NCBI RefSeq assembly: GCF_014195325.1
Contig: NZ_JACIBK010000005.1
Span: 248,001-312,000 of the forward strand
DNA: 64,000 bases
Source: Rhizobium sp. BK650
GTDB lineage: Bacteria > Pseudomonadota > Alphaproteobacteria > Rhizobiales > Rhizobiaceae
Direction: 5' to 3'
Shown: piece by piece, positions 4,863-35,074 of the stretch
Layout: every line of letters begins with the position of its first letter
Position numbering within the stretch: position 1 is the first letter of the stretch
Position numbers and translations under genes: made by a program
Notes under the pieces: generated by a model
Database searches by the model: none
What the model saw: only the letters and a program-made list of their open reading frames with translations
Told to the model about the DNA's origin: nothing

Positions 4863-6473
4863 ATGACTATTGCAGGTATCTCTCGGCGCGGCCTGCTGAA
4901 GGGCACGGCGCTGCTTCTCGCAACGACGGCCTCGTCGCGGATTGTGCTGGCGCAGGACGCACCAGCCGGCGGGCGCCTGATTGTTGCAGCTGATTCCGAG
5001 CCGAAGAACCTCAATCCCGCCATCGTTGCCTCGAACGGCGTCTTCTTCATCGCGAGCAAAGTGATAGAGCCACTCGCGGAGGCCTCGTACGAAGGCTCTG
5101 ATGGTCTGGCGCCACGTCTTGCCACGTCCTGGGAAGGCTCGGCCGACGGGCTCTCCGTCACGTTCAAGCTGCGCGACAACGCCACCTGGCATGACGGCAA
5201 GCCATTCACCTCGGCCGACGTCGCCTTCTCGGCCCTCAACGTCTGGAAACCGCTCCAGAACCTCGGCCGCCTGGTCTTCGCCAATCTGCAGGCGGTCGAC
5301 ACGCCCGACGACCACACGGCGATCTTTCGCTTCTCGAAGCCAACACCCTTCCAACTCATCCGAAATGCGCTTCCGGCTTGCACCAGCGTCGTTCCCAAGC
5401 ATATTTTTGAAGGCAGCGATATTGCCAAGAATCCGGCCAATAACGCGCTGGTCGGCACTGGCCCCTTCAAGTTCGCCGAATACAAGCCCGGCGAATATTA
5501 CCGGCTGACGCGTAACGAGAATTACTGGCAGAAGGGCGAGCCTAAGCTGAACGAAATTGTCTACCGCGTGCTGCCTGATCGTGAATCGGCGGGTGCTGCG
5601 CTCGAAGCCGAGGAAATCCATCTCGCCGCCTTCTCAGCCGTACCGCTTGCCGATCTCGACCGCATCTCCAAGGTTGACGGTATCAAGGTGATCTCCAAGG
5701 GTTATGAGGCGCTCACCTATCAGCTCGTCATCGAGATCAATCATCGCCGCAAAGAACTGTCCGATCTTCGGGTCCGTCAGGCGATTGCCCATGCGATCGA
5801 TAAGAAGTTCGTCGTCGACACGATCTTCCTCGGCTATGCGACGGAATCCACCGGCCCTGTTCCTAAGAATTCGAAAGAATTCTACACGGCCGATGTCGCC
5901 AACTATAATTTCGACGTGAAGGCGGCAAACGAGCTGCTGGACCAAGGCGGCTATACCAAGGGGCCCGACGGCAATCGGTTCCAGCTCAAGCTGCGACCGG
6001 CACCCTATTTCAACGAGACGCGGCAGTTCGGCGATTATCTGCGCCAGGCGCTCGCAGCCGTCGGCATCGATGCGGTCATTGTCAATGCCGATGCGGCTGC
6101 CCATCAGAAGGCCGTCTATACCGACCACGACTTCGATATTGCAGTCGGTCCGCCGGTCTTCCGTGGCGATCCAGCCATCTCGACCACCATTCTCGTCCAG
6201 TCCGGAACGCCTGACGGCGTGCCCTTCTCTAACCAGGGCGGCTACGTCAGCGCCGAACTCGACAAGATCATCGCACAGGCAGCAGTGACCGTGGATAGCG
6301 CCGCGCGCACCGACCTCTATTACAAGTTCCAGCAGCTTGTGGTGGCCGAACTGCCTTTGATCAATGTCGCCGAATGGGGCTTCATCACGGTTGCCCGTGA
6401 TACAGTGCTGAACGTATCCGACAATCCGCGCTGGGCGGTTTCGAACTGGAGCGATACCGCGCTGCAATTGTGA
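4863..6473 (+). CDS. ABC transporter substrate-binding protein, family 5 (DppA/NikA-like)
   Basis: A 536-residue periplasmic binding protein of the SBP_bac_5 family, which binds peptides, nickel chelates or other small organic ligands. The N-terminus has a twin-arginine-like stretch (SRRGLLKG, residues 7-14) followed by a hydrophobic run and a likely cleavage site near residue 30. The family block appears as PRLATSWEGSADGLSVTFKL and the following WHDGKPFTSADV. Length is normal for the family. A strong Shine-Dalgarno (AGGAGGGGG) fixes the start. The four genes after it supply the permeases and ATPases of the same importer. Confidence 0.93.
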   Translation: MTIAGISRRGLLKGTALLLATTASSRIVLAQDAPAGGRLIVAADSEPKNLNPAIVASNGVFFIASKVIEPLAEASYEGSDGLAPRLATSWEGSADGLSVTFKLRDNATWHDGKPFTSADVAFSALNVWKPLQNLGRLVFANLQAVDTPDDHTAIFRFSKPTPFQLIRNALPACTSVVPKHIFEGSDIAKNPANNALVGTGPFKFAEYKPGEYYRLTRNENYWQKGEPKLNEIVYRVLPDRESAGAALEAEEIHLAAFSAVPLADLDRISKVDGIKVISKGYEALTYQLVIEINHRRKELSDLRVRQAIAHAIDKKFVVDTIFLGYATESTGPVPKNSKEFYTADVANYNFDVKAANELLDQGGYTKGPDGNRFQLKLRPAPYFNETRQFGDYLRQALAAVGIDAVIVNADAAAHQKAVYTDHDFDIAVGPPVFRGDPAISTTILVQSGTPDGVPFSNQGGYVSAELDKIIAQAAVTVDSAARTDLYYKFQQLVVAELPLINVAEWGFITVARDTVLNVSDNPRWAVSNWSDTALQL

Positions 6474-7501
6474 TAGGGTCGACGCGCAATTGCTGCAGGG
6501 GCCTCGTCGGCGTGAAACGTACACTTCTCCTCCTGAGACGCAGGATCATCACCAGCATTCCGGTGCTGCTGATCGTCGTGATCTTCAGTTTTTTCCTGCT
6601 GGAATCCGCCTCCGGCGACGCGGCCGATGCCTATCTCGGTTCAATCGGTGGCGGTGATGCGGCACTGATCAAGTCACTGCGGGAGAGCTACGGGCTCGAC
6701 CAGTCGGTCTTTGCCCGCCTCTGGCTCTACCTCTCCTCACTCGGTCGCCTCGACCTCGGCTGGTCGGTGGCCTTCAATCGTCCGGTGCGCGATCTGATTG
6801 CCGAGAGGCTTCCCAACACGCTTCTCTTGATGGGAAGTGCGGCAGCACTTTCCTTCGGGCTCGGTTCGTCGCTCGGCATTCTCGCCGGCGCGAAGCCGCG
6901 AAGCCTTCGGGACCGTTTTCTGTCGATCGGCTCCCTGATCGTCTATGCCATCCCAAGCTTCTGGCTGGGGCTCGTGCTCAGCATCCTTTTTTCGGTCAAG
7001 CTGCGCTGGCTGCCGATCGCGGGCATCGAGACCATCGCCTCCGGCAAGTCAGGCCTGTCACGCACGCTCGATATTGCACAGCATCTGGCCCTGCCGGTCG
7101 GCACTCTCGCCTGCATCTATCTGGCGCTGTTTCTGCGTGTCATGCGCGCCGGCATGGCGCAAGCCTGGAAGCTTGATTTCGTCCTGTTTGCGAGATCGAA
7201 GGGCCTGTCGCGCAGCCGCATCGTACTTCGGCATGTGGCGCGCAATGCGCTACTGCCGCTCGTCACCATGCTCGGCCTGCAGGCCGCCGCGATGCTTGGC
7301 GGTAGCGTGGTTATCGAAAGCGTCTTTGCCATTCCGGGATTTGGCCGGCTGGCGCAGGAGGCGGTCAACGGTCGCGACGCGCCGCTCCTGATGGGCATCA
7401 TCCTTACCAGCGCCATCTTAGTCATCTGCGTGAATTTCCTCGTCGATCTCGTCTACGCTGCCCTTGATCCACGCATCGGCGCATCGGAGGGCCGTGTATG
7501 A
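6470..7501 (+). CDS. ABC transporter permease, DppB/NikB-like
   Basis: A membrane protein of up to 343 residues with about six transmembrane segments and the cytoplasmic coupling stretch ARSKGLSRSRIVLRHVARNA near residue 240. It is the first permease of the Dpp/Nik-type importer. Two starts are possible: a GTG at 6470 that overlaps the previous stop (GTGA), or a GTG at 6512, which has AGGGG about ten bases upstream and gives a more usual N-terminus (VKRTLLLL). The second looks slightly better, but the first allows coupling. Its end overlaps the next gene by four bases (ATGA). Confidence 0.92.
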   Translation: MIGSTRNCCRGLVGVKRTLLLLRRRIITSIPVLLIVVIFSFFLLESASGDAADAYLGSIGGGDAALIKSLRESYGLDQSVFARLWLYLSSLGRLDLGWSVAFNRPVRDLIAERLPNTLLLMGSAAALSFGLGSSLGILAGAKPRSLRDRFLSIGSLIVYAIPSFWLGLVLSILFSVKLRWLPIAGIETIASGKSGLSRTLDIAQHLALPVGTLACIYLALFLRVMRAGMAQAWKLDFVLFARSKGLSRSRIVLRHVARNALLPLVTMLGLQAAAMLGGSVVIESVFAIPGFGRLAQEAVNGRDAPLLMGIILTSAILVICVNFLVDLVYAALDPRIGASEGRV

Positions 7502-8328
7502 CCCTGCTGCGCCGTCTCCTCACAACCCCGGAAGGTTCGATTGGGCTTATCATCCTTGCAGCCCTTCTTGCCACCGGTTTGCTGGCGCCGGTTCTTTCGC
7601 CGGGAGATCCGCTGCGGATTGCCGGGCGGGCGATGCTGATGCCGTTTACCGATGCGGACCTGCCACTCGGCACCGACAGGCTCGGGCGGGATGTGCTTGC
7701 CGGCCTGCTCTATGGTGCGCGGACGTCGTTGGCTGTCGGCATTGCTGCAGCTTTCTCCGCAATGGTGCTTGGGCTTGTTGTCGGCATGGCTGCCGGTTTT
7801 GCGGGCGGCATCATCGACGAAGCTCTGATGCGCATCGTCGATGCTTTCCAGATCGTCCCGGGCTTTCTGCTGGCGCTCGCCTTTGTCAGCATTATCGGAG
7901 TATCGGTACCCGTCATCGTCTTTGCCATTGCGCTCGGAGCCTGGGCTGATCCCGCGCGGCTGACGCGGGCGCAGGTCCTGTCCATCCGCGAACGGGATTA
8001 TGTGGCTTCCGCACGCGTGATCGGCATGCATCCGGCCGAGATCGCCTTTAAGGAAATCCTTCCAAATGCCCTGCCGCCCGTGCTGGCGCTATCGGCCACA
8101 ATCGTTGCCGGCGCAATCCTCACGGAAGCAGCACTATCCTTCCTCGGTCTCGGCAATCCCAATCTCGCCACCTGGGGCTCGATGATCGCCGAAGGCCGCA
8201 GCGTGCTGCGCTCGGCCGCCTATCTCTCCGTACTCCCCGGTCTGGCCTTGGCCATCACCGTGCTTGGCGTTCACCTTTTCAGCGAAGGACTGACCAAGGC
8301 GCTCGATGGCAACGGAGGCGTGCGGTGA
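7498..8328 (+). CDS. ABC transporter permease, DppC/NikC-like
   Basis: A 276-residue membrane protein with six hydrophobic segments, the N-terminal family feature GTDRLGRDVLAGLLYGARTS and a coupling loop around SARVIGMHPAEIAFKEILPN. It pairs with the preceding DppB-like protein to form the transport channel. The ATG overlaps the previous stop (ATGA), and its own stop overlaps the GTG of the following ATPase, so the four genes are tightly coupled. Confidence 0.93.
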   Translation: MTLLRRLLTTPEGSIGLIILAALLATGLLAPVLSPGDPLRIAGRAMLMPFTDADLPLGTDRLGRDVLAGLLYGARTSLAVGIAAAFSAMVLGLVVGMAAGFAGGIIDEALMRIVDAFQIVPGFLLALAFVSIIGVSVPVIVFAIALGAWADPARLTRAQVLSIRERDYVASARVIGMHPAEIAFKEILPNALPPVLALSATIVAGAILTEAALSFLGLGNPNLATWGSMIAEGRSVLRSAAYLSVLPGLALAITVLGVHLFSEGLTKALDGNGGVR

Positions 8329-9107
8329 CCGCTCTCTTCTGCAGCATCAAGGGGCTTTCGGTCCGTTATGGGTGGGAAACAGCGCTAGATTCCATCGACC
8401 TCGATCTCATCGTGGGCGAGAGGGTGGCAATCATCGGCGAAAGCGGATCCGGCAAAAGTACGCTTGCCCGGGCGCTCGCTGGCCTTCTACCGGAGGAGGC
8501 AAGGATCGAAGGCAAGATAAGCTGGCCGGCGCTTGGCCATGCTCCGGCTCCCGGCCGTGATTTCGGTTTCGTTTTTCAGGACCCCGGCACCAGCTTCAAT
8601 CCAGTGCTGACGATCGGCGAGCAGGTCGCGGAGGGCCCCCGCCAACACCTGGGCCTCGGCTGGCGACAGGCCTTTGCCCGCGCTGAGGAACTGCTGGAGC
8701 GCGTAGGCTTACCACAGCCGAAAAACCTCATGCACGCCTTCCCGCACCAGCTCTCAGGTGGCCAGCGGCAGCGCGTGGCGATTGCGGCAGCGATTGCGGC
8801 CAGACCCGCCCTGCTCATCGCCGATGAGGCAACCAGTGCGCTCGATGTCGTGGTTCAGGCCGAGATCGTCGGACTTCTCGACAGCCTAGTGCGCGAGGAA
8901 GGCATGACGCTGCTCTTCATTACCCATGATATCGCGCTCGCCTCCGGCTTCGTCGATCGCCTCGCCGTCTTCCGCAGCGGAAAGTTGGTCGAAGCCGGCG
9001 CCGTTCACTCGGTGCTATCATCGCCAGCCAATAGCTATACCGCCGCCCTGATCGCCAGCCATCGCGATCTCTCCACGCCACCAATGATTACCGGGAGGGC
9101 GTCATGA
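8325..9107 (+). CDS. ABC transporter ATP-binding protein, DppD/NikD-like
   Basis: A 260-residue ATPase with Walker A GESGSGKST at residues 38-46, Q-loop VFQDPGTS, signature LSGGQRQRV at 143-151 and Walker B LLIADE at 163-168. Translation starts at a GTG overlapping the upstream stop. At 260 residues it lacks the long C-terminal extension of true DppD/OppD proteins (about 320-330) and is closer in size to NikD. This favours a small chelate or non-peptide ligand, but that is inference only. Confidence 0.92.
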   Translation: MTALFCSIKGLSVRYGWETALDSIDLDLIVGERVAIIGESGSGKSTLARALAGLLPEEARIEGKISWPALGHAPAPGRDFGFVFQDPGTSFNPVLTIGEQVAEGPRQHLGLGWRQAFARAEELLERVGLPQPKNLMHAFPHQLSGGQRQRVAIAAAIAARPALLIADEATSALDVVVQAEIVGLLDSLVREEGMTLLFITHDIALASGFVDRLAVFRSGKLVEAGAVHSVLSSPANSYTAALIASHRDLSTPPMITGRAS

Positions 9108-9883
9108 CCGAGCTCCTGACGGTAGATACATTGTCCAAGGCCTACTCCGGCTCCGGGCGGCAGGTCACGGCTCTCGACAGTGTTTCCCTGACAATCGCAG
9201 CCGGCGAAACCTTGGGCTTGGTTGGAGCGTCGGGCAGCGGAAAATCGACACTGTCGCGCGCCCTTCTACGTCTGCTTGAGCCTGATTCCGGCTCCATCCG
9301 TTTCGAAGGGCAAGACTGGTTGGCACTTCACGGAGCCGAGCTGCGGCGCAAGCGCGCGCGCATGCAAATGGTGTTTCAGGATCCACTCGCCGCCTTCAAC
9401 CCTCTTGCCTCGGTCGCCTCAGTTCTCGACGACCCGCTGCGGATCCACGCCATTGCTGTGCGAAAGCAGCGGCCAGCCGAAATTGCCACCCTGCTGGAAC
9501 GCGTCGGTCTTCCCTCTGCCTTCGCCTCCCGACCCGTCCGCACGTTATCTGGAGGCCAAAGACAGCGCGTCGCCATTGCCCGCGCCATCGCGACACGGCC
9601 TTCACTGCTGGTATTGGACGAAGCCGTTTCGGCACTCGACGTGACGGTTCGAGGCCGCATTCTCGAATTGCTCATCAAGTTGCAGCGCGAGCGCGGCCTT
9701 GCCTATCTCTTCATATCGCATGACCTCGCGGTGGTACGCGCAATTTCGCATCGCATCGCGGTCATGGATGCCGGTCGCATCGTCGAGGATGGGCCGTCGG
9801 CGGATGTCGTCAATGCGCCGCGATCAGATGCGGCGCGCCGGCTCATCGCGGCTGTGCCGCGGCTTGTAACCGAACCCGTTTGA
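9104..9883 (+). CDS. ABC transporter ATP-binding protein, DppF/NikE-like
   Basis: A 259-residue ATPase with Walker [10 protein letters not shown] at residues 41-49, Q-loop [11 protein letters not shown], signature LSGGQRQRV and Walker [13 protein letters not shown]. It overlaps the preceding ATPase gene by four bases and completes the five-gene importer. Like its partner it is NikE-sized. The aminotransferase gene starts 11 bases after its stop. Confidence 0.92.
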
Positions 9884-9894
9884 AGGAGCTGCCC

Positions 9895-10989
9895 ATGACC
9901 GAAGTCGCCTGGAATCCGCTCTATGGTGTCCCAGTCTATCCGGCAGAACGCTACGCCAGTCTCGCCCACCGCATCGGCAGGCTCCTGCGCACGGATAACG
10001 ACGTTCTGCTGGTGCAGGCGGAGGCCGTAGTGGCGCTCGAGGCCGTTGCGACCAGCCTTGCACGACCAGGCCTTTCGGCGCTGAACGTGGTCACGAGCCC
10101 CTATGGCAGCTGGTTTGGACAATGGTTGCGGCGCGGTGGCGCCAACGTCATCGATATTGTCGCTCAGCCAGGCCGGCCGATCGAGGCCGTGGCGGTCGCC
10201 GTCGCGTTGGATGCCAATCCCAATGTCCGCGCGCTGGCGCTCGTCCATGCGGAATCGGCAAGCGGTATTCTCAATCCGCTGCCCGAGATCATTGCTCTCG
10301 CAAAGGCGCGCGGCATTGTCACGATAGTCGACGCCGTTGCCTCCGTCGGCGGCCATCCGCTCGAAGTCGATGCGCTGGGCATCGACATCGCCGTGATCGG
10401 CCCACAGAAAGCGCTCGGCGGACCGGCCGGCGTTTCCGCTCTGTCAGTCGGCCAGAATGCCTGGGAGCTGATCCTCCATGACGATGCTCCCCATAATTCC
10501 ATCCTGGCGCTGGCTGATCTGAAGACCTGGGCGGATGCCGGTCGCGACGCCTTGCCGGGAACGCCGGCGCCGCTGGAACTTTTTGCGCTGGAAGCTGCCC
10601 TCGACCGCGTCGAGGCAGAAGGCCTCGGACAGGTCCTCGCTCGCCATGAGAAAGCCGCTTTTGCAAGTCGGGCCGGCCTTACAGCGCTGGGCGCTAATCT
10701 TTGGGTGCCGGCCGAGCAGGGATCGAACCTTGTGACGACGGTGTCCCTACCGTCGGGAATGGAAGCCACGCCTATCATTGGCTTTGCAGCAAGGCTGGGC
10801 GTCGAATTCACACCCGGTGTGGGGACAGGTTCATCTCATCTCGTGCGTATCAACCACACAGGTGCGCGGGCGACCTTCCAAGCCGTGCTCGCAAATATCG
10901 TGGCCTATGGCGCTGCACTTCGCCAAGCCGGTCTCCCGGCCGATATAGGCACCGCATCGGAAGCGGTCGCGAATGCGTACAGCGACTGA
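9895..10989 (+). CDS. Class V aminotransferase (alanine/serine-glyoxylate aminotransferase-like)
   Basis: A 364-residue PLP enzyme of fold type I. The Schiff-base lysine is probably Lys172 in the motif GPQKALGGPAG; Asp146 (TIVDAVAS) should hold the pyridine nitrogen, and HAESASG at 118-124 matches the substrate/PLP loop. Class V members of this branch transfer amino groups from alanine, serine or pyridoxamine to glyoxylate or pyruvate, or act as lyases. An AAGGAG site fixes the ATG at 9895. As the last gene of the operon it may process the amine released from the imported compound. The exact reaction is unknown. Confidence 0.88.
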   Translation: MTEVAWNPLYGVPVYPAERYASLAHRIGRLLRTDNDVLLVQAEAVVALEAVATSLARPGLSALNVVTSPYGSWFGQWLRRGGANVIDIVAQPGRPIEAVAVAVALDANPNVRALALVHAESASGILNPLPEIIALAKARGIVTIVDAVASVGGHPLEVDALGIDIAVIGPQKALGGPAGVSALSVGQNAWELILHDDAPHNSILALADLKTWADAGRDALPGTPAPLELFALEAALDRVEAEGLGQVLARHEKAAFASRAGLTALGANLWVPAEQGSNLVTTVSLPSGMEATPIIGFAARLGVEFTPGVGTGSSHLVRINHTGARATFQAVLANIVAYGAALRQAGLPADIGTASEAVANAYSD

Positions 10990-10992
10990 CCG

Positions 10993-11160
10993 TCAATACC
11001 AGGAGAGCGGGGTGGGCTGCCAGAAGAAGAGTTCTTCCTCGCGCAGGCTGCGCAAGCGGCTTTCAGCGTCTGCCACCGTGGCGGCGGTGGGTATCTCGAA
11101 AGCTCGTTGCGCGTCGCCTCGGAAAAGCTTCGCAAGGAATGTTCTGAATGCCGTAAACAT
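10993..11160 (-). CDS. Small basic protein of unknown function (55 aa)
   Basis: A short gene whose ATG at 11160 follows a perfect Shine-Dalgarno (AGGAGGTG, five bases before the start), which is the main reason to believe it. The product begins with an amphipathic or hydrophobic helix (MFTAFRTFLAKLFRG) and ends with a charged helix and FFWQPTPLSWY. Small proteins of this build, often DUF-named, are common in rhizobia, but I do not recognise a family here. It converges with the aminotransferase gene, the stops being three bases apart. Function unknown. Confidence 0.6.
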   Translation of the reverse strand: MFTAFRTFLAKLFRGDAQRAFEIPTAATVADAESRLRSLREEELFFWQPTPLSWY

Positions 11161-11395
11161 ACGCCACCTCCTAGAGAACCTCGGTGGTGATCTTCGCATG
11201 GTTCTGCCGGTCGCGATACATTGTCTACAAAACTACTATTCTAATTTCCTGACCTGCCCGGCATGATGATACCCCGGCGGGAATAGCTGATGAAAAAGCG
11301 CTCTTCTTATGGAGGCGCCAATCTATCGCCGGCCCCTTGAGAATCGAGGCTTTCCGATGCACGAAGGCACCGAAGACGATGACGAGGAAGACGAA

Positions 11396-12250
11396 ATGGC
11401 TGATGCGAGAGGGCTTCGGATAGAGTTTGAGGGTCATCCGACCCTACTGAAATGGCACCGTCTGCGTCGACGCATGGCCGACCCGCTATTTTCGGCTGAG
11501 GTGATGGCGGAAGGCTTCAGGGCTGGCGCCTCGATGGAACTCGACCTTCGGGTCCGCGCCGACGGCGGTTTTGTCGTGCTGCATGACAAGGAGCTGGAAG
11601 GCGAGACGTCCGGACACGGCATAATTGCAGAAAAGAGCCTTTCGGATCTGCGCGACCTGCGCATGAAGGAGGGCAATCGTCCCCTGCTTACCAGCGAAGA
11701 TCTGGCCGCGATGCTGCAATCAGCCCATCCGAATGCGCTGCTGCAGTTCGACATGAAGGATGATTACGGTGTGATCGGCGAAAAAGGGATTGCCCATCTC
11801 GCTGAACACCTGCAGCAAATTTCCGCCTCCGTCATCGTCAGTGGCGCAAGCCTGGAGCTGATCCTGGCCGTCAAGGAGAAGCTGCCGCATCTGCGGCGCG
11901 GCATCGACCCCACCGACAAGCTCGACGATATCTGTAGGGCTGGGGACTGGAATGCGGCCGAAAAGGAGTTGCTGGCCGATCTGCGCGGTCCGACCGAACC
12001 GGAAACCATCTATCTCAACTGGCAGATGTTGCTCGATGCTGCCAAGGCAGACCTCGATATGATCGCGCTGTGCCACAGCGAGGGCAAGCGGGTCGATGCC
12101 TGGACCTTCACGCTGAAGGACCCCGATAGCGGTTTTACCGATGCCGAATGGGGAAATTTCTCAGCTCTGATGGCGTTGAAGCCCGATCAAGTCACCACGG
12201 ATGAAGCCCCGGCCACCGAGCGGGCATGGTTGAAGCGTATGGCGAGCTGA
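11396..12250 (+). CDS. Glycerophosphodiester phosphodiesterase-family protein (divergent)
   Basis: A 284-residue protein with the metal and catalytic pattern of GDPD enzymes: His21-Arg22, Glu48 and Asp50 (MELDL), and His63-Asp64 (VVLHDKEL). The HRG-x-ENT signature is altered (HRLRRRM, no ENT), so this is a divergent member. The start at 11396 is preceded by GAGGA seven bases away; an upstream in-frame ATG at 11309 would add an acidic tail (EDDDEEDE) that looks like translated leader. It ends exactly where the convergent IMPase-family gene ends, and a canonical GDPD lies at 14063-14830 on the other strand, so both probably belong to one phosphodiester pathway. Confidence 0.82.
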   Translation: MADARGLRIEFEGHPTLLKWHRLRRRMADPLFSAEVMAEGFRAGASMELDLRVRADGGFVVLHDKELEGETSGHGIIAEKSLSDLRDLRMKEGNRPLLTSEDLAAMLQSAHPNALLQFDMKDDYGVIGEKGIAHLAEHLQQISASVIVSGASLELILAVKEKLPHLRRGIDPTDKLDDICRAGDWNAAEKELLADLRGPTEPETIYLNWQMLLDAAKADLDMIALCHSEGKRVDAWTFTLKDPDSGFTDAEWGNFSALMALKPDQVTTDEAPATERAWLKRMAS

Positions 12251-27404: not shown

Positions 27405-28232
27405 TCAAATCGCGGCCCAGAGATTGCGAAGCATCTCCTGTAACTGCAGGGCCTCCCCCCATCGATCAGTGCTGTCACTGCCGTCACGAGTGCTAATTGC
27501 GTAGGGTCTTGGCCCCAGCTCACAGGTGAAGACCAGTTCGGCGTCCGACGCGGCACGAGCACGCCAATCACGCATGCCGTAGTCCCACCATTGAAGGAAG
27601 AGCTCGACCCACGGCCGATGCTGCGGAAAAGAGATTTCGATCTGCACCTGTTCGCACGACGCGACCCTGCCGTGAAAGGCATGCGCATTTCGGAGAATGC
27701 GATGGATCATCGCGTGAGTTTCGTCATCGACGGGGTAGGCAAACTCGCGCGCGACCGTGAAGTGCGAGAGATCGGCGAGCAACGGCAGGTTCGGCCGTTG
27801 CTCCAGCAGATCGAGCGTAAAGAACAGATCCGTGGTCATCCGGTTGCGATGGGTTTCGATCAGAACCGAAATGCCGGCGGCGGCGGCAAGCTGCATCCAA
27901 CCATCCAGGATCGGCAGGCATTCCTCGACGCGGCGCAGACGGATATCGGGCTGCAGACAGATATGGCTGACTGGATATTCGGCGGCGAGTTCGAGCGTCA
28001 GGTGCAAGTCCTCGACTGTCTGGGGGAAACAGACACCTTCAACCCTCAATCCGGTGCCCTGGATCGCATCGTTCAGCCTGACGACATCGGCGCGGCTCGT
28101 ATAGTGGGCACTGATGCCGTCGAAGCCGGCCTCCAGGATCATCGACACGTTCTCATCGAGGCTGCGCTCGTACCCGTCAGGATGCCGACGCTCCATGGCC
28201 CAGAGCGATTGGAAGATCATGAGCTTCTGCAT
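27405..28232 (-). CDS. Sugar phosphate isomerase/epimerase-like TIM-barrel protein
   Basis: A 275-residue protein of the xylose-isomerase-like TIM-barrel (AP endonuclease 2) family, which holds sugar and inositol isomerases, epimerases and dehydratases such as IolE and MocC. Likely metal-site segments are VLIETHRNRM (near 135-144), LADLSHFT (near 163-170) and AFHGRVAS. The ATG shares a base with the stop of the mocF-like gene, so it is in that operon. By context it may process an inositol-like product of the Moc oxygenase, but the reaction is not determined. Confidence 0.82.
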   Translation of the reverse strand: MQKLMIFQSLWAMERRHPDGYERSLDENVSMILEAGFDGISAHYTSRADVVRLNDAIQGTGLRVEGVCFPQTVEDLHLTLELAAEYPVSHICLQPDIRLRRVEECLPILDGWMQLAAAAGISVLIETHRNRMTTDLFFTLDLLEQRPNLPLLADLSHFTVAREFAYPVDDETHAMIHRILRNAHAFHGRVASCEQVQIEISFPQHRPWVELFLQWWDYGMRDWRARAASDAELVFTCELGPRPYAISTRDGSDSTDRWGEALQLQEMLRNLWAAI

Positions 28233-29437
28233 CAGGCCGCCCGCACGCTTTTCAAAAGCGCCTTGAGGTTCAGGTTGGCGTCGGCGAGCGCGGCTGGATC
28301 AGGCCGGACGCCTGCAGCGATCAGCATCTCGGAAAGCTTGATATCCTTGGCGAGCGCATTGCCGAAACCAAGACCGGCTGCGGCAACGAGACGTCCTCCG
28401 TCCAGATAGAATTCAAGCTCACCATCGTCATATCGCCGGACCACGCTTTGATGCTCCGGCTGCGGTAGCCCCGCCACCTGGAGGCCGAGATCGTACTGAT
28501 CAGACCAGAACCAGGGGATGGCGGCGAAAGCCTCCGGAGAGCCGATCATATTGCGTGCCGCAGTTTCGGCTTGAGTTCTGGCATTCCGCCAGCTTTCGAA
28601 CCGGATGTGACCGCCACCAGGCTGACTTACTGCCGCGCAGTCACCTGCCGCGAAGATATCGGCCGCGCTGGTGCGCAAATGTGTGTCCGTGAGAATGCCA
28701 TTGCCCGTTGCCAGTGCGGCGTCTTGCGCCAAGGTGATCTCCGGCATCACACCGATAGCGCTGACGACGACTTGCGCTCGAACTATATTGCCATCCGTCA
28801 GAAGAACGCCGTCGTCGTTGATGGCGCTAACGCCCCGGTCCAGATGGAAATCGACGCCTTCGGCGATATGCCTGGCATGGAGCTTCGCGGCAAAGCGCGG
28901 CGGAACAGCGCGGCCCAACGGTTTGGGCGCGGCCTCAATGACGCTGACCGCGACGCCCTTTCCGCGCAGAACGGATGCGAGTTCCATACCAATCAGGCCG
29001 CCGCCGATAATGGCAGCGCTCCGGCCTGGCCCGACACTGGCAAATAATGCCTGTGCATCGGCATGCGTGCGTAAATCAAGCGCACGTTCGGCTCCGGGAC
29101 AGCCGAGCTTTCTGGGGCGCGCGCCAGTGGCAAGCACCAGCTTTTCAAAGGGCAGGAGGCGACCGTCAGTCAAAAGGACAGTACGAGCATCAACGTCCAG
29201 TTTCGACGCAGACACTCCTTTGATGTAATCGATGCCGGCAGCCCTCAGCACATCTTCTGCACAGATCAGCTTCATCTGCACGGTACCGTTCATCGGCTTC
29301 GACAGTGGCGGGCGTTCATAGGGCAGGTGCGGCTCGGCGCCTACCAGGGTTACGGAGCCGGAATATCCGGTCTCCCTCAAGGCGAAAGCAGCGCGTGTTC
29401 CGCATTCCCCTGCACCGACGATGACAATGCCGCTCAT
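28232..29437 (-). CDS. mocF: Ferredoxin reductase, MocF-like
   Basis: A 401-residue FAD/NAD(P)H oxidoreductase. The N-terminal dinucleotide site is VGAGECG (7-13), a second NAD-type glycine motif is IGGGLIGMELASVL, and the late FAD motif is FAAGDCA. A C-terminal reductase domain follows. This is the layout of oxygenase-linked ferredoxin reductases. The neighbouring Rieske ferredoxin and membrane oxygenase match the mocDEF set known from rhizopine (3-O-methyl-scyllo-inosamine) breakdown in rhizobia. GGAG before the ATG at 29437 fixes the start. Confidence 0.82.
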   Translation of the reverse strand: MSGIVIVGAGECGTRAAFALRETGYSGSVTLVGAEPHLPYERPPLSKPMNGTVQMKLICAEDVLRAAGIDYIKGVSASKLDVDARTVLLTDGRLLPFEKLVLATGARPRKLGCPGAERALDLRTHADAQALFASVGPGRSAAIIGGGLIGMELASVLRGKGVAVSVIEAAPKPLGRAVPPRFAAKLHARHIAEGVDFHLDRGVSAINDDGVLLTDGNIVRAQVVVSAIGVMPEITLAQDAALATGNGILTDTHLRTSAADIFAAGDCAAVSQPGGGHIRFESWRNARTQAETAARNMIGSPEAFAAIPWFWSDQYDLGLQVAGLPQPEHQSVVRRYDDGELEFYLDGGRLVAAAGLGFGNALAKDIKLSEMLIAAGVRPDPAALADANLNLKALLKSVRAA

Positions 29438-29495
29438 GAGGTTCTCCATGGAAAAAGGCACCGGCGTTCGAGAAGATGCCGGCCAGGTCGGATCA

Positions 29496-29807
29496 TCAGT
29501 CGAGCGCCACGCGCACTACCCCGTCGATCACTTCGGTCGGATAGGTTTTTAGGTTCTCGCAGGCAGGAAGCCGCAGGGCCTCACCGGTGCGGTAGTCGAA
29601 GGCGCCGGAATGCTTGGGACATTCCACTTCGAAATCCATGACCAGGCCTTCTGCGAGATGGATTGCTTCGTGAGTGCAGAGACCGGCGGTGCAATAGACG
29701 CTATCGTCAGGTCCGCGGTAGATGGCATAGGTGCGGCTGCCGTGATCGAAACGAATGGCGCCTTCCTGTTCGATATCCTCGAGTTTGCAGGCGGTGGTCC
29801 AGGTCAT
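29496..29807 (-). CDS. mocE: Rieske [2Fe-2S] ferredoxin, MocE-like
   Basis: A 103-residue Rieske ferredoxin with cluster ligands Cys44 and His46 (LCTHEA) and Cys63 and His66 (CPKHSG). It should carry electrons from the MocF-like reductase to the MocD-like oxygenase. The ATG overlaps the mocD stop (ATGA). Its size and neighbours fit MocE. Confidence 0.88.
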   Translation of the reverse strand: MTWTTACKLEDIEQEGAIRFDHGSRTYAIYRGPDDSVYCTAGLCTHEAIHLAEGLVMDFEVECPKHSGAFDYRTGEALRLPACENLKTYPTEVIDGVVRVALD

Positions 29808-30838
29808 TCGGCTGCTCCCTTGAGTCCTGAGCCGGCTTTTCGGGCTGCGAGTTTTTCCTTACGGCGGCGGTAGCGCTCCTGCATGCGAACCTCGCCTTCA
29901 GGCGAGCCGTCGTGCCAGGTGCCGAACCATCGATCCAACGGGATCAACGCATCGCCGTAGTTCACCTCGAAATATTTGTGGTGCAGGTAGTGCGCATAAG
30001 CATGGCTATCGAGCAACTTGTCTCCGCCGATCGCGACCTTGTCGAAGCCGACGTGTCCAGGAATGGCGCCGAAGCCGGCATAGTGGAGCTGATAAAGCAT
30101 CAAGACCGGGTTGGATGGCAGGATCAGGTGGTAGAAAGCCGTTCCGAGGTAGAGCAGATGCTCGACCGGATGCATCGACAACGACGACCAGGGTGACGGA
30201 TTGACCGAGTTGTGATGGACCGAGTGCACCCATTTGTAGAGGAACGGCGTGTGGATGAGGCGGTGGATACAGAAGAAATGGAACTCATGGATGATCGGCA
30301 CGATCAGCGCGACGATGGCAAGCGTCCAGGGGTGTTCGGCAAAGCTCAGCCACGGCGCGTAACCATTGGCATAGGACCATAGCACCACCGCCTCGATCGC
30401 CGTCCAGATCACCACGCCTGAGAGGAAAGTGCGCAGCATATTGTCGAGGTTCTGACTTTCGAACCAGAACGCCTTATTCTTCTGTTCGGCGGGGAATTTT
30501 CCGTTGTATTTGAAGCGGTTCTCTTGCCGCTTCAGCACATAGAGATGCACCTCGAAGGCTCCGTAAAAGAGCAGGACGCAGATTGCGTTTACGGCATAGA
30601 GCCAGACAATCCAGCCGAAGCCGAAGGTACGCATCGTCTCGACCGATGGAATGACCCACGCCCAATAGGCGACGGCAGACGCAGCAAAGATCGCATTCCA
30701 GGGAAAGAAATAATGCGGCAACCATTTCAGGATGGCCATCAGCCGCGGCGGGAAGGCAAAGAGCGGCGCTGTCTCGACGGGCTTGTTGGGCGCCCAGTCG
30801 CCGCGCTTGTTGCGCGTGCCGAATGTCAGATCGTCCAT
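29804..30838 (-). CDS. mocD: Membrane-bound di-iron oxygenase, MocD-like (fatty acid hydroxylase superfamily)
   Basis: A 344-residue protein with several membrane helices and the histidine boxes of membrane di-iron hydroxylases: HEFHFFCIH, HSVHHNS and AYAHYLHH. MocD is described as the oxygenase that removes the methyl group of rhizopine (3-O-methyl-scyllo-inosamine) with MocE and MocF; the same superfamily includes sterol and fatty acid hydroxylases. A GGAG site precedes the ATG at 30838. The set mocDEF is complete, but other moc genes (mocB, the mocC/mocA/mocR cluster) are not obvious next to it. Rhizopine use is therefore inferred, not shown. Confidence 0.82.
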   Translation of the reverse strand: MDDLTFGTRNKRGDWAPNKPVETAPLFAFPPRLMAILKWLPHYFFPWNAIFAASAVAYWAWVIPSVETMRTFGFGWIVWLYAVNAICVLLFYGAFEVHLYVLKRQENRFKYNGKFPAEQKNKAFWFESQNLDNMLRTFLSGVVIWTAIEAVVLWSYANGYAPWLSFAEHPWTLAIVALIVPIIHEFHFFCIHRLIHTPFLYKWVHSVHHNSVNPSPWSSLSMHPVEHLLYLGTAFYHLILPSNPVLMLYQLHYAGFGAIPGHVGFDKVAIGGDKLLDSHAYAHYLHHKYFEVNYGDALIPLDRWFGTWHDGSPEGEVRMQERYRRRKEKLAARKAGSGLKGAAE

Positions 30839-30935
30839 TTCACTCTCCTCACGGCGACGCGGGCGTTTCCGCATCGCATACTTTGGAAAGAGAGCGGTGG
30901 CGCGCTTGATCCGGTGTCGCTCCTCTTGGCGCTGC

Positions 30936-30971
30936 GGCTCTCCTCCTTAGTTTGAAATTAACAGGAGAGCC
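30936..30971. repeat. 9-bp inverted repeat between the LacI gene and mocD
   Basis: GGCTCTCCT at 30936-30944 and AGGAGAGCC at 30963-30971 form a perfect inverted repeat with an 18-base AT-rich spacer. It lies upstream of mocD and downstream of the LacI gene. There is no T-run on the minus strand, so it may be an operator or leader hairpin. A second short inverted repeat (TTGATC, six bases, GATCAA) lies at 30992-31009. Confidence 0.4.
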
Positions 30972-31005
30972 TTGCGGCCGCGAAAGCATTCTTGATCAAA
31001 TTAGA

Positions 31006-32007
31006 TCAAAGTCCTTCCTTGGTGATCGTGATGAAACGAATGGGCGCCCGATCCGGCTCGAGATCGGTCAGACCAATGCGACGCAAGACGAGATCGAGCG
31101 ATCGACGAGCCTGCGCTTCCGGCGCCTGATCGAGCACGACATCCATGACATCGTCCTGCAGGGCTTTGCGGGTGTAATCCGTGAGTTCGTGGCCGACGAA
31201 GAAGATATTTCGTTCGCGCGCGTGACGACGCAGCACATCGATCAGTGCGGAATTGGCGCCGCCGGCATTGTAGAGCCCCGCGAGTTCAGGATAGGTCTTC
31301 AAGGCCGAGAGCAAGAGCTCGGCGCTGAAGTGCTCCTCATCAAGGCCAAACCCCAGCCATTGAAAGCTCGTGGTGCCCGGATGCTCCAGAAAGTAATCGG
31401 AAAATCCACGGATGCGATCGCGATGCACCTGATAGATCGGATGACAGATAGCGACGACAGGTCCTTGCCTGCGGGCCATGCGGCTGATGAACAGCGCGGC
31501 GGTCCGTCCGGCGGCATAGTTGTCGATGCCGACGAATTCGCCCGAACGGTCGGATGCACGGGTAACAACGTGCACCACCGGCAATCCCTGCGCGGCGACC
31601 TTTTCGACGGCCTCCTGGATCACTGCACTGCTTGGTACTGCCAGGATCAACCCGGCGCGTGGCAGATCGGTCGACAGGATACGGCGGGCAACCTCCTCCG
31701 GCTTCATCTCCTCGGTAAAGCTGCGATGGACAACGATCAGCGGATCGAGGGTCGCCGCGATCCGCTCGAATGCCTTTGAGAGCCGTTGATAAAAGCTCGT
31801 CTCGGGACGAACCATCAGCACCTCGATACGCAGCAGGCCGCGATGGGCGTCCGGAAGTATGCGTGGGTAATTCAGGCTGCGCGCGGCGATGACGACCTTT
31901 GCGACCAGTTCGGGACGAACCCCACCGCGACCATTGAGGACACGCTCCACGGTTGCGGTTCCCACGCCCGCCTGCCGGGCGATATCCCGATAGTTCGGCT
32001 TGCTCAC
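31006..32007 (-). CDS. LacI-family transcriptional regulator next to mocDEF
   Basis: A 333-residue regulator. The helix-turn-helix is NYRDIARQAGVGTATVERVL (residues 5-24) and the rest is a sugar-binding-protein-like domain. The GTG at 32007 has GGAGG seven bases upstream and gives the usual family N-terminus. It lies directly upstream of mocD on the same strand with a 167-base gap. It probably controls mocDEF in response to an inositol-like ligand (inference). The classical rhizopine regulator MocR is a GntR protein, so this locus is wired differently. Confidence 0.9.
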   Translation of the reverse strand: MSKPNYRDIARQAGVGTATVERVLNGRGGVRPELVAKVVIAARSLNYPRILPDAHRGLLRIEVLMVRPETSFYQRLSKAFERIAATLDPLIVVHRSFTEEMKPEEVARRILSTDLPRAGLILAVPSSAVIQEAVEKVAAQGLPVVHVVTRASDRSGEFVGIDNYAAGRTAALFISRMARRQGPVVAICHPIYQVHRDRIRGFSDYFLEHPGTTSFQWLGFGLDEEHFSAELLLSALKTYPELAGLYNAGGANSALIDVLRRHARERNIFFVGHELTDYTRKALQDDVMDVVLDQAPEAQARRSLDLVLRRIGLTDLEPDRAPIRFITITKEGL

Positions 32008-32249: not shown

Positions 32250-32708
32250 ATGAGCCTTGAATCCGTCCGCGCCTTTTTCGCCGCTAATGCTCCCGATATT
32301 GCCATCATCGAAACAGCGGGAAGTTCCTCGACCGTCACACTTGCGGCCGAAGCGCATGGTGTCGAGCCGGCGCAAATCGCTAAGACCATCTGCCTGAGGG
32401 TTGGCGAGCGCACGATGTTGATTGTGGCGAGCGGCACTGCGCGTCTCGACAACAGAAAGTTCAAGGCTAGCTTTGGGGGCAAGGGGCGCATGCTCGATGC
32501 CGAGGAGGTATTGGCGGTGACGAGCCACCCGGTCGGTGGGGTCTGCCCCTTCGGTCTGCCGGCGCCGCTGCCGATCTATTGCGACGTGTCGCTGAAGCGG
32601 TTCGACGAGGTCGTGCCGGCCGCCGGCTCGACCAATTCGGCGGTGCGCATCCCGACCGATCGACTGGCGCAAATCACCCGGGCTGAATGGGTGGACGTCT
32701 GTCAGTAG
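32250..32708 (+). CDS. YbaK/ProX-type aminoacyl-tRNA deacylase
   Basis: A 152-residue protein of the YbaK/EbsC family, which removes wrongly attached amino acids from tRNA (for example Ala or Cys from tRNA-Pro). Typical segments are AKTICLRVGERTMLIVASG, a region with Lys-rich DNRKFKASFGGKGRML and GGVCPFGLP. It has its own upstream gap of about 240 bases and is probably a single gene. Confidence 0.88.
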   Translation: MSLESVRAFFAANAPDIAIIETAGSSSTVTLAAEAHGVEPAQIAKTICLRVGERTMLIVASGTARLDNRKFKASFGGKGRMLDAEEVLAVTSHPVGGVCPFGLPAPLPIYCDVSLKRFDEVVPAAGSTNSAVRIPTDRLAQITRAEWVDVCQ

Positions 32709-32787
32709 CAGAGCAAAACTTCACAGCGCAGAAAGAATACCTATATAAGTCCCGACATGCCAGCCAGCGCATGAAGGAGATTAAGGA

Positions 32788-33801
32788 ATGCCCAGTGCCT
32801 TTTCGCGTTTTGCCAGGATCGCGGCAATTGCCGTCCTTGCGGGCGCTACCGTCTTTGCCACGATCAGCGATGCCGATGCGCGCCGCGCCGGCGGCTTCGG
32901 CGGTTTCGGGAGCCGTGGCACTCGCACCTTCAGCGCGCCTCCGGTGACGCAGACTGCGCCCGCTCCGGCTGCGCCGATCGAGAGGTCGATGACGCCTCGC
33001 CCGCAGACGACCACGCCCTATAGCACGCAACAGCCGGGCTATGCCGCGCAGCGACCTGGCCTCTTTGGCGGCTTCGGCCGTTCCATGATCGGCGGCCTGA
33101 TCGCCGGCGGCCTCTTCGGCATGCTGCTTGGCCATGGTTTCGGTGGCGGCTTCGGCTTCCTCGGCATGTTGCTGCAGATCGCGCTGATCTTCGGCGCGAT
33201 CACGCTTGCGATGCGCTTCTTCGCCAATCGCCGCCAGCCGTCTTACGGCGCAGGCAGCCAAAGCTATGGCGGGCCGCAGCCCTATAACATGTCGCCGGCC
33301 AATGGCGGATCGTCCTTCCATATACCAGCGATCGGTTCGGGCTCCAGAAGCCAACAGCAGCGCAATGCGCGCCCGGGGGACGAGATCGGCCTTACCCAGG
33401 CGGACCTCGATCAATTCGAGGAGTTGCTAACGAGAGTTCAGACCGCTTATGGCGCGGAAGATTACGGCGCGCTGCGCCGCCTGACGACACCAGAAGCCAT
33501 GTCCTACCTTGCCGAAGAACTTGGCGAGAACGCCACCAATGGCGTCCGCAACCAGGTTTCCGACGTCAAGCTGCTGCAGGGTGATATTGCCGAGGCCTGG
33601 CGTGAGAACGGTCAGGAATATGCGACACTTGCAATGCGCTATTCCTCGATCGACGCCATGGTCGAACGCAATACCGGCCGCGTCGTCTCGGGCGACGACC
33701 GCCGCCCGAGCGAAAGCACCGAGGTCTGGACCTTCGTGCGCAAGCCAGGCGCTGACTGGAAGCTTGCCGCCATCCAGGCTACAGGCCAGCGCGCCGCTTA
33801 A
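32788..33801 (+). CDS. Tim44-like domain protein with signal peptide
   Basis: A 337-residue protein. A signal or anchor (FARIAAIAVLAGATVFAT, about 8-25) leads into a glycine/phenylalanine-rich linker (RRAGGFGGFGSRG) and a proline/threonine-rich part, then a hydrophobic block (about 100-147), and finally a Tim44-like domain from about 200 (LTQADLDQFEELLTRVQTAY). Such proteins are common in Alphaproteobacteria. The mitochondrial Tim44 homologue tethers Hsp70 at the inner membrane, but the bacterial role is not established. Its end overlaps the convergent dehydrogenase gene by four bases. Confidence 0.87.
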   Translation: MPSAFSRFARIAAIAVLAGATVFATISDADARRAGGFGGFGSRGTRTFSAPPVTQTAPAPAAPIERSMTPRPQTTTPYSTQQPGYAAQRPGLFGGFGRSMIGGLIAGGLFGMLLGHGFGGGFGFLGMLLQIALIFGAITLAMRFFANRRQPSYGAGSQSYGGPQPYNMSPANGGSSFHIPAIGSGSRSQQQRNARPGDEIGLTQADLDQFEELLTRVQTAYGAEDYGALRRLTTPEAMSYLAEELGENATNGVRNQVSDVKLLQGDIAEAWRENGQEYATLAMRYSSIDAMVERNTGRVVSGDDRRPSESTEVWTFVRKPGADWKLAAIQATGQRAA

Positions 33802-34826
33802 TTCACCGATACGGGCTTGGAGCGCATACGGGACACCGTTTCGCGCTCCGCTCGCTTGCAGCGCATCGGCGGCAAACCGCGATCCATCAGATCCATATCC
33901 TCGAGCACCATGTCGCCCATTTTCTTGAAGGCGACATCGAGCGCGCCGGCGCGATGGGCCGAGCGGATGAAACCCTTGAGACGGCGGACCGGGTGATCCG
34001 GCGCCAGCGGCTCCTCAGGATAGACGTCGCTTGCTGCAACGATATGGCCGGAAGCGACCGCAGCCATCAACGCATCGAAATCGACGACATCTGCTCGGCT
34101 GAGCAGGATGAAGGCTGCACCCTTGCGCATGCTCGCGAAGGCATCCGCGCCAAGGAAGCCCCGGTTTTCGCTGGTCACGGAAGCGACGACGAAGACGAAA
34201 TCGCTCTGCGTTAACACCTCCTTCAGGCTCGCCGGCTCGACGCCGTTTTCCTCCAGGATCGAACGTGGCATCCAGGGATCGAACACCCTGATCCTGGCCT
34301 TGAAGCCAGAGAGGACCCGCCGCAGCGCTTTGCCGAGATCGCCGAAACCGACGATGCCGATCTCGGAACCCGATATCAGCCGCGCGCTGGCATTGCCCTC
34401 ACCACCCCAAAGCTCATGACCCGTCCGGAAAGCCACGTCGGCATCGATGATGCCGCGCGCGAGGCTGAGCGCAAAGCCGAGGCCGATCTCCGCCACCGGT
34501 TCGGCAAAAACTTGCCCGGTCGTCACCACATGGATGCCGCGCTGAAAGAGGATCTCGTAGGGCATATTGTTGAGGAGATTGCTCTCGACATTGAGGATCG
34601 CACGCAGTTGCGACATCCGACCAAGTGTTTGCGCCGAAAGCGGTGGTTGGCCAATGACGTAGCGTACCTTGCCGAGAGTGTCATCGCCAAGGCCAGCAAT
34701 GTTTTCGGGATCGGCCTCGACGATTTCATATCTCGCGTGGAGTTCTCCGCGCGCCTTGTCGCTGAAGATCAGATCGAGCGTGCGCGGCTCCGGCGCGCTG
34801 ATCGCGAGCGGCCTTTCGGTATCCAT
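33798..34826 (-). CDS. D-2-hydroxyacid dehydrogenase family protein
   Basis: A 342-residue NAD-dependent dehydrogenase. The Rossmann motif is GIVGFGDLG, and the catalytic set appears as Arg in LLSRADVVD, Glu in YPEEPLAPDHP and His in SAHRAGAL. The family reduces 2-keto acids or oxidises D-2-hydroxyacids such as glycerate, lactate or phosphoglycerate; the substrate cannot be told. AGGAGG in front of the ATG at 34826 fixes the start. It is transcribed alone. Confidence 0.9.
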   Translation of the reverse strand: MDTERPLAISAPEPRTLDLIFSDKARGELHARYEIVEADPENIAGLGDDTLGKVRYVIGQPPLSAQTLGRMSQLRAILNVESNLLNNMPYEILFQRGIHVVTTGQVFAEPVAEIGLGFALSLARGIIDADVAFRTGHELWGGEGNASARLISGSEIGIVGFGDLGKALRRVLSGFKARIRVFDPWMPRSILEENGVEPASLKEVLTQSDFVFVVASVTSENRGFLGADAFASMRKGAAFILLSRADVVDFDALMAAVASGHIVAASDVYPEEPLAPDHPVRRLKGFIRSAHRAGALDVAFKKMGDMVLEDMDLMDRGLPPMRCKRAERETVSRMRSKPVSVN

Positions 34827-35074
34827 TATCGGCTCCTCCTTAAGACGCGTCAGCCTGCGCCTCCGCAATATGATTGATAGTCCGGTTCGACGGCACTTGT
34901 GAAGCCGCCTTTCAAATAGGCAATTGCCCACGATATAAGCTTCTGAAATCCCTGACTATTCGGCCGCTTTTCATTGACCGGCAGATCGCTCTGGACTAGC
35001 TTATTCACGCGCCTTGTAACCCAGCCTGAAGGGTCGGCGGCCGCAGGATCAAAATACTCAGAGGGAGTTCGACA

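Follow-up and report, generated by a model that had tools for sequence, protein, structure and literature searches.

The closest described relatives of the operon studied here are mocDEF clusters. A LacI gene of the FixV type and a PF01261 gene beside mocDEF were published for rhizobia in 2013 (PMC3538637), and the available excerpt of a 2016 paper on Pseudomonas syringae gives mocDEF followed by a xylose-isomerase gene (PMC5132102). A LacI and TIM-barrel layout alone is already known beside real mocDEF and is not new. According to the available excerpt of PMC3617469, alkylglycerol monooxygenase is an eight-histidine enzyme with the fatty-acid-hydroxylase motif that is able to cleave ethers. 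Two complete moc loci, in Rhizobium indicum (L028) and Phyllobacterium zundukense (L029), served as the reference for mocDEF standing with mocA, mocB and mocR; these true moc loci also carry PanB and purU genes.

The window is the whole stretch analysed, 64,000 nucleotides of Rhizobium sp. BK650 (contig NZ_JACIBK010000005.1, positions 248,001 to 312,000). At 27405-32007 it carries a minus-strand operon of five genes, with the following features:

31006..32007, minus strand: LacI-family regulator, GTG start (PF00356 41 bits and PF13407 65 bits, both over cut-offs)
30992..31009, no strand: candidate LacI operator TTGATCTAATTTGATCAA (read on the minus strand), a palindrome across the lacI stop codon
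29804..30838, minus strand: integral-membrane di-iron oxygenase in the place of MocD (PF04116, 71.7 bits against a Pfam cut-off of 31; ATG at 30838)
29496..29807, minus strand: MocE-family Rieske [2Fe-2S] ferredoxin (TIGR02377, 179.5 bits against a cut-off of 136.15)
29438..29495, no strand: spacer of 58 bases between the ferredoxin and reductase genes (sequence compared with L018)
28232..29437, minus strand: MocF-type FAD ferredoxin reductase (PF07992 223 bits, PF14759 74 bits)
27405..28232, minus strand: TIM-barrel protein (PF01261 20.8 bits, under the cut-off of 31.1, and hence only "xylose-isomerase-like")

Profile searches bore out the five-gene set of LacI, membrane oxygenase, Rieske ferredoxin, FAD reductase and TIM-barrel-like protein proposed by the sequence-only reading. 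The overlaps of 1-4 bases that it reported occur at two of the three junctions behind the oxygenase gene (4 bases between oxygenase and ferredoxin, 1 base between reductase and TIM-barrel gene) and not between ferredoxin and reductase, where the spacer lies. The gap from lacI to the oxygenase gene is 167 bases. The gene order was found again in many genomes in the comparison of related loci, and this repetition rules out a chance neighbourhood.

Like the two complete moc loci, the operon joins a ferredoxin, an FAD reductase and a membrane oxygenase; a MocB-like binding protein and a PanB-like C1 gene are also shared, though in relatives of the window. Unlike them, it has a PF04116 oxygenase for the PF00487 one, a LacI regulator with its own palindrome, no MocR or moc-box, and its own TIM family. 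The FixV/Msi119-associated mocDEF layout (PMC3538637), which is present on contig C13 of the same genome (L014), likewise combines LacI and a PF01261-type protein with D-E-F, but it has a real MocD, and its LacI and TIM genes diverge from mocDEF; the LacI of C13 is only 28% identical to that of the window, and the TIM proteins have no significant similarity. The mocDEF-xylA2 order of P. syringae, likened here by the gene order published in the available part of PMC5132102, has a xylose-isomerase gene directly behind D-E-F and shows no mocCABR.

The claim of a complete mocDEF set proved wrong for D. The oxygenase belongs to PF04116 (fatty acid hydroxylase / sterol desaturase), MocD belongs to PF00487, and BLASTP found no usable similarity between the window protein and a true MocD (31 residues, E 0.07). 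The real mocDEF lies on contig C13, where MocD (PF00487), MocE, MocF and PanB genes were found and MocD is 82-83% identical to that of the two complete moc loci. All eight histidines of the oxygenase motif (HxxxH, HxxHH, HxxHH) were invariant in alignments of 13 and of 24 members. The AlphaFold model was weak (mean pLDDT 69); none of the 31 rows of a Foldseek search of it against the PDB had an E below 0.001, and the oxygenase profile had no match among PDB sequences at E up to 1. The gene is unevenly distributed: of 398 genomes from the phylum, 19 have it (the own genome counted), all within the class of the window. It is present in Sinorhizobium meliloti 1021 and in Rhodobacterales. DNA matches were obtained in 108 of 120 genomes of the same genus, a tally that includes short single-gene matches and hence is no count of operons. 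The exchange of MocD for a PF04116 enzyme found no description in the literature searched, nor did a search return anything pairing a sterol desaturase with MocE. The operon is annotated as sterol desaturase plus MocE ferredoxin.

The ferredoxin passed the MocE-family model and was 57-58% identical to MocE of L028 and L014, and the reductase, of MocF type by its domains, shared 46-47% identity with those of L014 and L028 in alignments of 406-408 residues. The TIM-barrel protein was 55-64% identical to TIM proteins of the L021, L024 and L025 clusters; neither IolE nor the FixV-side TIM matched it significantly, and PDB sequences gave nothing useful. Judged by sequence, it belongs to a family that accompanies the PF04116 oxygenase. 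Residues E126, D154, H187 and E238, which we take by analogy to be a possible metal site, were invariant in 13 members.

The LacI protein has the LacI/GalR architecture, a helix-turn-helix (PF00356) and a periplasmic-binding, sugar-binding-like domain (PF13407), and in 53 of 55 close loci a LacI gene stands no more than 6 kb from the oxygenase gene. The candidate operator is conserved in a 49-row intergenic alignment; TTGATCNNATNNGATCAA occurs at up to 2 mismatches in 77/93 related loci, and the palindrome at up to 1 mismatch in one place of the own 6.4-Mb genome (backward control, 0). For the paired moc-box, the best total mismatch at the window was 9, the same as in random stretches (300 from the window scored 6-12, 266 of them 8-10). 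C13 also gave 9, and values of 2 and 1 were found before mocD of L028 and L029, respectively, and 4 before mocB of L028. Control by a LacI regulator, of another type than MocR as the sequence-only reading had proposed, thus appears probable because the palindrome across the lacI stop codon is conserved and the moc-box pair is missing.

Overall, 93 related loci were compared, with a close group (n = 55) and a middle group (n = 31); the tree held 57 of 86 collected rows, with 55 scored. Of the 55 close loci, 41 have a binding-protein gene at most 6 kb from the oxygenase gene, and the clade of the window is without it. In most close relatives this gene occupies the position of the 58-base spacer, which by eye matches the stretch of L018 from the binding-protein stop codon to the reductase. 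In relatives this protein shares 54% identity with the MocB of each of the two complete moc loci, and in four further clusters from genomes of the same genus (L181-L184) the oxygenase is paired with a MocB relative of 55-56%. The best PDB match of the L018 protein was 4yo7 (E 7e-54), and a model of the L033 protein matched the same entry with Z 34.1 and 42% identity, the next rows being tied within 1. We take 4yo7 to be a structure with myo-inositol bound and use it as a lead only. Out of mocA, mocB and mocR, close relatives have the MocB relative only; around the window oxygenase, none of the three references had a match among the neighbours shown within 7.5 kb. A plain mocDEF operon was rejected on the oxygenase family, the missing moc-box and the lack of linked mocA, mocB and mocR.

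Genes for C1 disposal were counted within 6 kb at identities of at least 40% for PanB-like proteins and at least 50% for glutathione-dependent formaldehyde dehydrogenase (GSH-FDH). Matches under these limits, such as GSH-FDH-like proteins of 25-28% in L057 and L073, and matches covering <60% of the reference, including the GSH-FDH of L072 cut by a contig end, were left out. A PanB-like gene was found in 28/93 loci and GSH-FDH in 5/93, with neither farther than 6 kb in the same 93 loci; the whole own genome, as a comparison for this linkage, has two PanB-family genes and one close GSH-FDH. Together, 33/93 loci have one or the other, but only 4/55 in the close group; within 6 kb, the remaining 51 have no C1 gene of either kind, and the window has none. 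PanB-like proteins may work on ring-fission keto acids rather than on C1 units. Inositol genes stand beside few distant relatives only: L020 holds iolD, iolE and Gfo/Idh/MocA genes, and L027 holds iolG. Both oxygenases, PF04116 and PF00487, occur together in 5/93 loci: L020, L021 and L087, and further apart in L063 and L064. In L021 a divergent LacI gene precedes the unbroken series PF04116, PF00487, E, F, TIM and Idh. Because none of the 31 middle-group loci has a MocF-type reductase within 6 kb, the electron chain of that group is not the whole MocDEF set.

We read the operon as probably encoding an O-demethylase that acts under LacI control on a methylated cyclitol (of the pinitol, ononitol or rhizopine kind), as MocDEF does but through a non-orthologous oxygenase, at a probability of roughly 0.55. 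An O-methyl inositol or similar ether, the substrate proposed from the letters of the DNA, would still be the best reading because relatives have as neighbours genes for a MocB-like binding protein and for C1 disposal, and some genes of inositol catabolism. The C1 genes indicate demethylation and no particular substrate, and the domains of the binding protein and of LacI suit sugars generally, as would be expected if the methyl group came from an O-methyl sugar, a methyl glycoside or an N-methyl compatible solute. The distant clusters L023 and L025 adjoin ectoine genes, so substrates may differ between clusters. Even so, such a non-inositol compound seems unlikely to us, given that the binding protein is much closer to MocB than to its counterparts in the L020 and L027 clusters (24-26% or no significant match, in one comparison) and that inositol genes occur in L020, L021 (Gfo/Idh/MocA) and L027.

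The family and the integral membrane character of the oxygenase would also fit hydroxylation or desaturation of a membrane lipid (fatty acid, hopanoid or ornithine lipid), with the sugar-type genes as passengers. The PF04116 substrates known to us are lipids, and the available excerpt of PMC3617469 describes the motif family with lipid substrates. Alkylglycerol monooxygenase provides the precedent for ether cleavage, being a membrane enzyme with eight histidines and a presumed di-iron centre, but it depends on tetrahydrobiopterin, acts on a lipid and has no ferredoxin-reductase operon. We rank a lipid enzyme low, as improbable, because of the neighbouring genes: a LacI with a sugar-binding-like domain, the MocB-like protein, the TIM family accompanying the oxygenase and, in some loci, Gfo/Idh/MocA, PanB-like and GSH-FDH genes. 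By Pfam, 0/4 of the other operon genes are lipid-related, and the patchy presence in the phylum also speaks against it. A second proper demethylase of rhizopine (3-O-methyl-scyllo-inosamine) would account for the MocE/MocF homology and the MocB-like binding protein; it is very doubtful in view of the absence of MocR, MocA and MocB relatives near the window oxygenase and of the moc-box score there against those of the true moc loci. Moreover, the oxygenase gene occurs in S. meliloti 1021, which is not known to use rhizopine, and in Rhodobacterales, which are not known to nodulate.

If the operon is an O-demethylase for a methylated cyclitol, most close relatives would take up the substrate by the operon-encoded MocB-like periplasmic protein, and the clade of the window by another importer, for instance the MocB-like ABC system on contig C27. 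With the ligand present, the LacI repressor would leave the palindrome where the lacI gene ends, and the downstream genes would then be read; both the binding to this site and the sign of control are predicted. As judged from the protein families, electrons would pass from NADH through the FAD reductase and the Rieske ferredoxin to the di-iron centre of the PF04116 oxygenase. Hydroxylation of the O-methyl carbon would give a hemiacetal, which would yield formaldehyde and the free cyclitol. Formaldehyde could enter the glutathione-dependent dehydrogenase or methylene-tetrahydrofolate, a route suggested by the GSH-FDH and PanB-like genes that adjoin the operon in relatives, and the TIM-barrel protein with inositol dehydrogenases would pass the ring into inositol breakdown. 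More tentatively, a PF04116 enzyme may have been recruited as O-demethylase of soluble methyl inositols on the MocDEF electron chain. The clusters with two oxygenases might then demethylate di-O-methyl inositols twice or divide isomers between them, and the operon might belong to a family of cyclitol demethylases that differ in the position they act on.

Methyl inositols are plentiful around legumes. Among the compounds that PMC5789663 lists for Mimosa root exudate, pinitol has the highest concentration (145 uM in the induction medium), and PMC8730688 reports that Lotus nodules accumulate pinitol and ononitol. Rhizopine aside, no bacterial enzyme demethylating methyl inositols was found described in the literature searched. 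The operon, recurrent in rhizobia, is a direct candidate for this activity, with both an operator and formaldehyde as a product predicted. Such loci should not be labelled mocDEF or lipid enzymes in annotation. If the reading is true, such demethylases would let rhizobia and other alphaproteobacteria use pinitol, ononitol and related compounds of exudates and nodules as food.

The operon lies on the minus strand of the window and comprises five genes:

32007-31006, minus strand, LacI regulator
30838-29804, minus strand, membrane oxygenase of family PF04116
29807-29496, minus strand, Rieske ferredoxin (MocE family, above the curated cut-off)
29437-28232, minus strand, FAD reductase
28232-27405, minus strand, TIM-barrel-like protein (Pfam score of 20.8 bits, below the cut-off of 31.1)

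All five genes expected by the sequence-only reading were present, but the oxygenase was not MocD. The overlaps of 1-4 bases held for oxygenase/ferredoxin (4 bases) and reductase/TIM gene (1 base) but not for ferredoxin and reductase, which are separated by 58 bases; the gap between lacI and the oxygenase gene is 167 bases. Genes for YbaK-like, Tim44-domain, and hydroxyacid dehydrogenase proteins lie upstream of lacI (32250-34931), and their order relative to the operon was kept in the related loci L030-L038 and L076. Eight of the ten loci have a CUT1-type binding-protein gene behind the operon, the exceptions being L036, where the contig ends, and L076; in the window none was found in that place.

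The window oxygenase belongs to PF04116 (fatty acid hydroxylase/sterol desaturase), whereas MocD of the rhizopine demethylase set belongs to PF00487 (fatty acid desaturase). The eight motif histidines of the PF04116 oxygenase were invariant in alignments of 13 and of 24 members. Two complete moc loci, found via the plasmid collection in Rhizobium indicum (L028) and Phyllobacterium zundukense (L029), served as references, with the order Gfo/Idh/MocA, sugar-binding protein, PLP-aminotransferase-type regulator, PF00487-type oxygenase, MocE, reductase, PanB-like, and purU. We read the names mocA, mocB, mocR, and mocD in them from annotation, gene order, and the moc-boxes; moc gene order and the moc-box pair are described in PMC10107442. 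The published pair upstream of mocD was recovered with 2 mismatches in L028 and 1 in L029; its best match in the window region had 9, similar to random stretches.

The real MocD relative of this genome, a PF00487 oxygenase with 83% and 82% identity to MocD of the two complete loci, was located on contig C13, followed by MocE, reductase, and PanB, with a divergent LacI-TIM pair. The two oxygenases shared no usable similarity, whereas the ferredoxins were 58% and the reductases 46% identical. The cell therefore has, in the window operon, a parallel system with another oxygenase family beside MocE/MocF-type partners, and the description "complete mocDEF set" had to be abandoned: the operon probably resembles MocDEF in function but is not MocDEF. 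Within the compared C13 locus (L014, C13:70000-89000), the true mocD-E-F-PanB set with its divergent FixV-type LacI and TIM-barrel genes occupies positions 6017-11714. No moc-box pair was found at this mocDEF, so it is probably not under MocR control.

The gene layout, presented earlier as striking, is already known: PMC3538637 describes rhizobial LacI (FixV) homologues that adjoin mocDEF and have a PF01261 gene behind them, and suggests that an inositol derivative is sensed; PMC5132102 describes mocDEF followed by a xylose-isomerase gene in P. syringae. In the open-licence literature searched, no description was found of the oxygenase-family swap, the candidate operator, or the tandem-oxygenase clusters.

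Relatives were collected by tblastn against plasmids (122 records) and by a named-genome scan, which gave at least 593 pattern matches; at least 570 of these were relatives, and the 80 best were retained. Neighbours were classified in 93 loci (the window, 12 plasmid loci, and 80 genome loci), with references drawn from the compared loci themselves. By oxygenase identity to the window, 55 loci were close (≥79%), 31 middle (60-79%), and 7 below; the resulting counts are not independent, as loci were chosen by similarity, many are near-copies, and some contigs end within the cluster. Up to 6 kb from the oxygenase, loci of the close group had MocE in 55/55, LacI in 53/55, reductase in 50/55, the TIM family in 46/55, and a MocB-like binding protein in 41/55. 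In the middle group, which consists mainly of Mesorhizobium and Rhodobacterales, the usual order was LacI-PanB-oxygenase-binding protein-ferredoxin (PanB 25/31, binding protein 22/31, ferredoxin 19/31, reductase 0/31 within 6 kb). In a phylum sample, 19 of 398 genomes, our own included, had a relative at E 1e-20, all from the same class.

An alignment of the LacI-oxygenase intergenic regions from close relatives (49 rows) revealed a strongly conserved dyad, present in the window as TTGATCTAATTTGATCAA at 30992-31009, where it overlaps the stop codon of lacI; its right arm is non-coding. In 77 of the 93 loci, and in none of the seven most distant, the palindrome TTGATCNNATNNGATCAA (≤2 mismatches) occurred no more than 1.3 kb upstream of the oxygenase gene; 4 other sites were present in 1.85 Mb (96 loci scanned, three without this oxygenase). 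Allowing ≤1 mismatch, the own genome contains it at a single place, against 0 for the backward control. Loci with LacI types below about 50% identity mostly lacked it, with exceptions both ways, such as L066, which has the palindrome at 1 mismatch. This pattern fits a dedicated local LacI regulator, with the palindrome as its candidate operator. In the Mesorhizobium type the palindrome lies behind lacI and before PanB, so PanB would fall in the same unit as the oxygenase genes.

Genes for C1 disposal were detected within 6 kb in 33 of the 93 loci (PanB-like, 40% identity limit, in 28; GSH-dependent formaldehyde dehydrogenase, 50% limit, in 5), and none beyond 6 kb in these loci at these limits. 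Only 4/55 of the close group had one, the window none. Across the 6.4 Mb of the own genome, the PanB family is represented by two genes, one of which follows the C13 mocDEF, and GSH-dependent formaldehyde dehydrogenase by a single close match (90%, contig C3). Among ten further clusters picked from same-genus and phylum-sample matches, PanB was present in L185, L186, and L190, the dehydrogenase in L182, and neither in six; a MocB relative of 55-56% occurred in four (L181-L184). L185 and L186 are different PF04116 clusters of one genome (G189), each with its own LacI, ABC transporter, and PanB-like gene.

In most close relatives, a periplasmic binding-protein gene lies between the ferredoxin and reductase genes; its product shares 54% identity with the MocB proteins of L028 and L029. 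In the window, the place of this gene is taken by the 58-base spacer, which by eye matches the stretch behind the binding-protein gene of the related locus L018, starting at its stop codon. In the oxygenase tree, a supported clade without this gene (SH-aLRT 96) united the window with Rhizobium mesosinicum (L030) and Rhizobium sp. BK418 (L076). The trait changed at least eight times on this quick tree, which is blind to gain versus loss; loss in the window clade is favoured because the nearest sister rows have the gene. Contig C27 of the own genome (L149, 8943 bases) encodes an ABC ATPase and permease together with a MocB relative (74% identity to MocB), a system that could act as a substitute importer for the window operon; a gene sulfatase-like by eye is also present.

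Several features favour an inositol-type substrate: the MocB relationship; inositol genes in L020 (iolD, iolE, and Gfo/Idh/MocA genes next to the two oxygenases), L021 (Gfo/Idh/MocA genes), and L027 (iolG); and loci with both oxygenases, PF04116 and PF00487, which are close together in L020 (9100-12172), L021 (494-7875), and L087 and lie 8.6 kb from each other in L063 and L064. In L021, both belong to a single row of genes that also includes ferredoxin, reductase, TIM, and Gfo/Idh/MocA genes. An iolD relative is present in the own genome, with 51% identity to the iolD of L020. A precedent for ether cleavage is alkylglycerol monooxygenase, which has the fatty acid hydroxylase motif (PMC3617469). 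PMC5789663 reports a pSym gene of the sterol desaturase/fatty acid hydroxylase superfamily, <40% identical to others, that Mimosa root exudate induces in three rhizobia with a nod-like timing. Since two distant PF04116 clusters adjoin ectoine genes, for catabolism in L023 (1-3021) and transport in L025 (1980-5023), the substrates of the wider family may include several methylated solutes.
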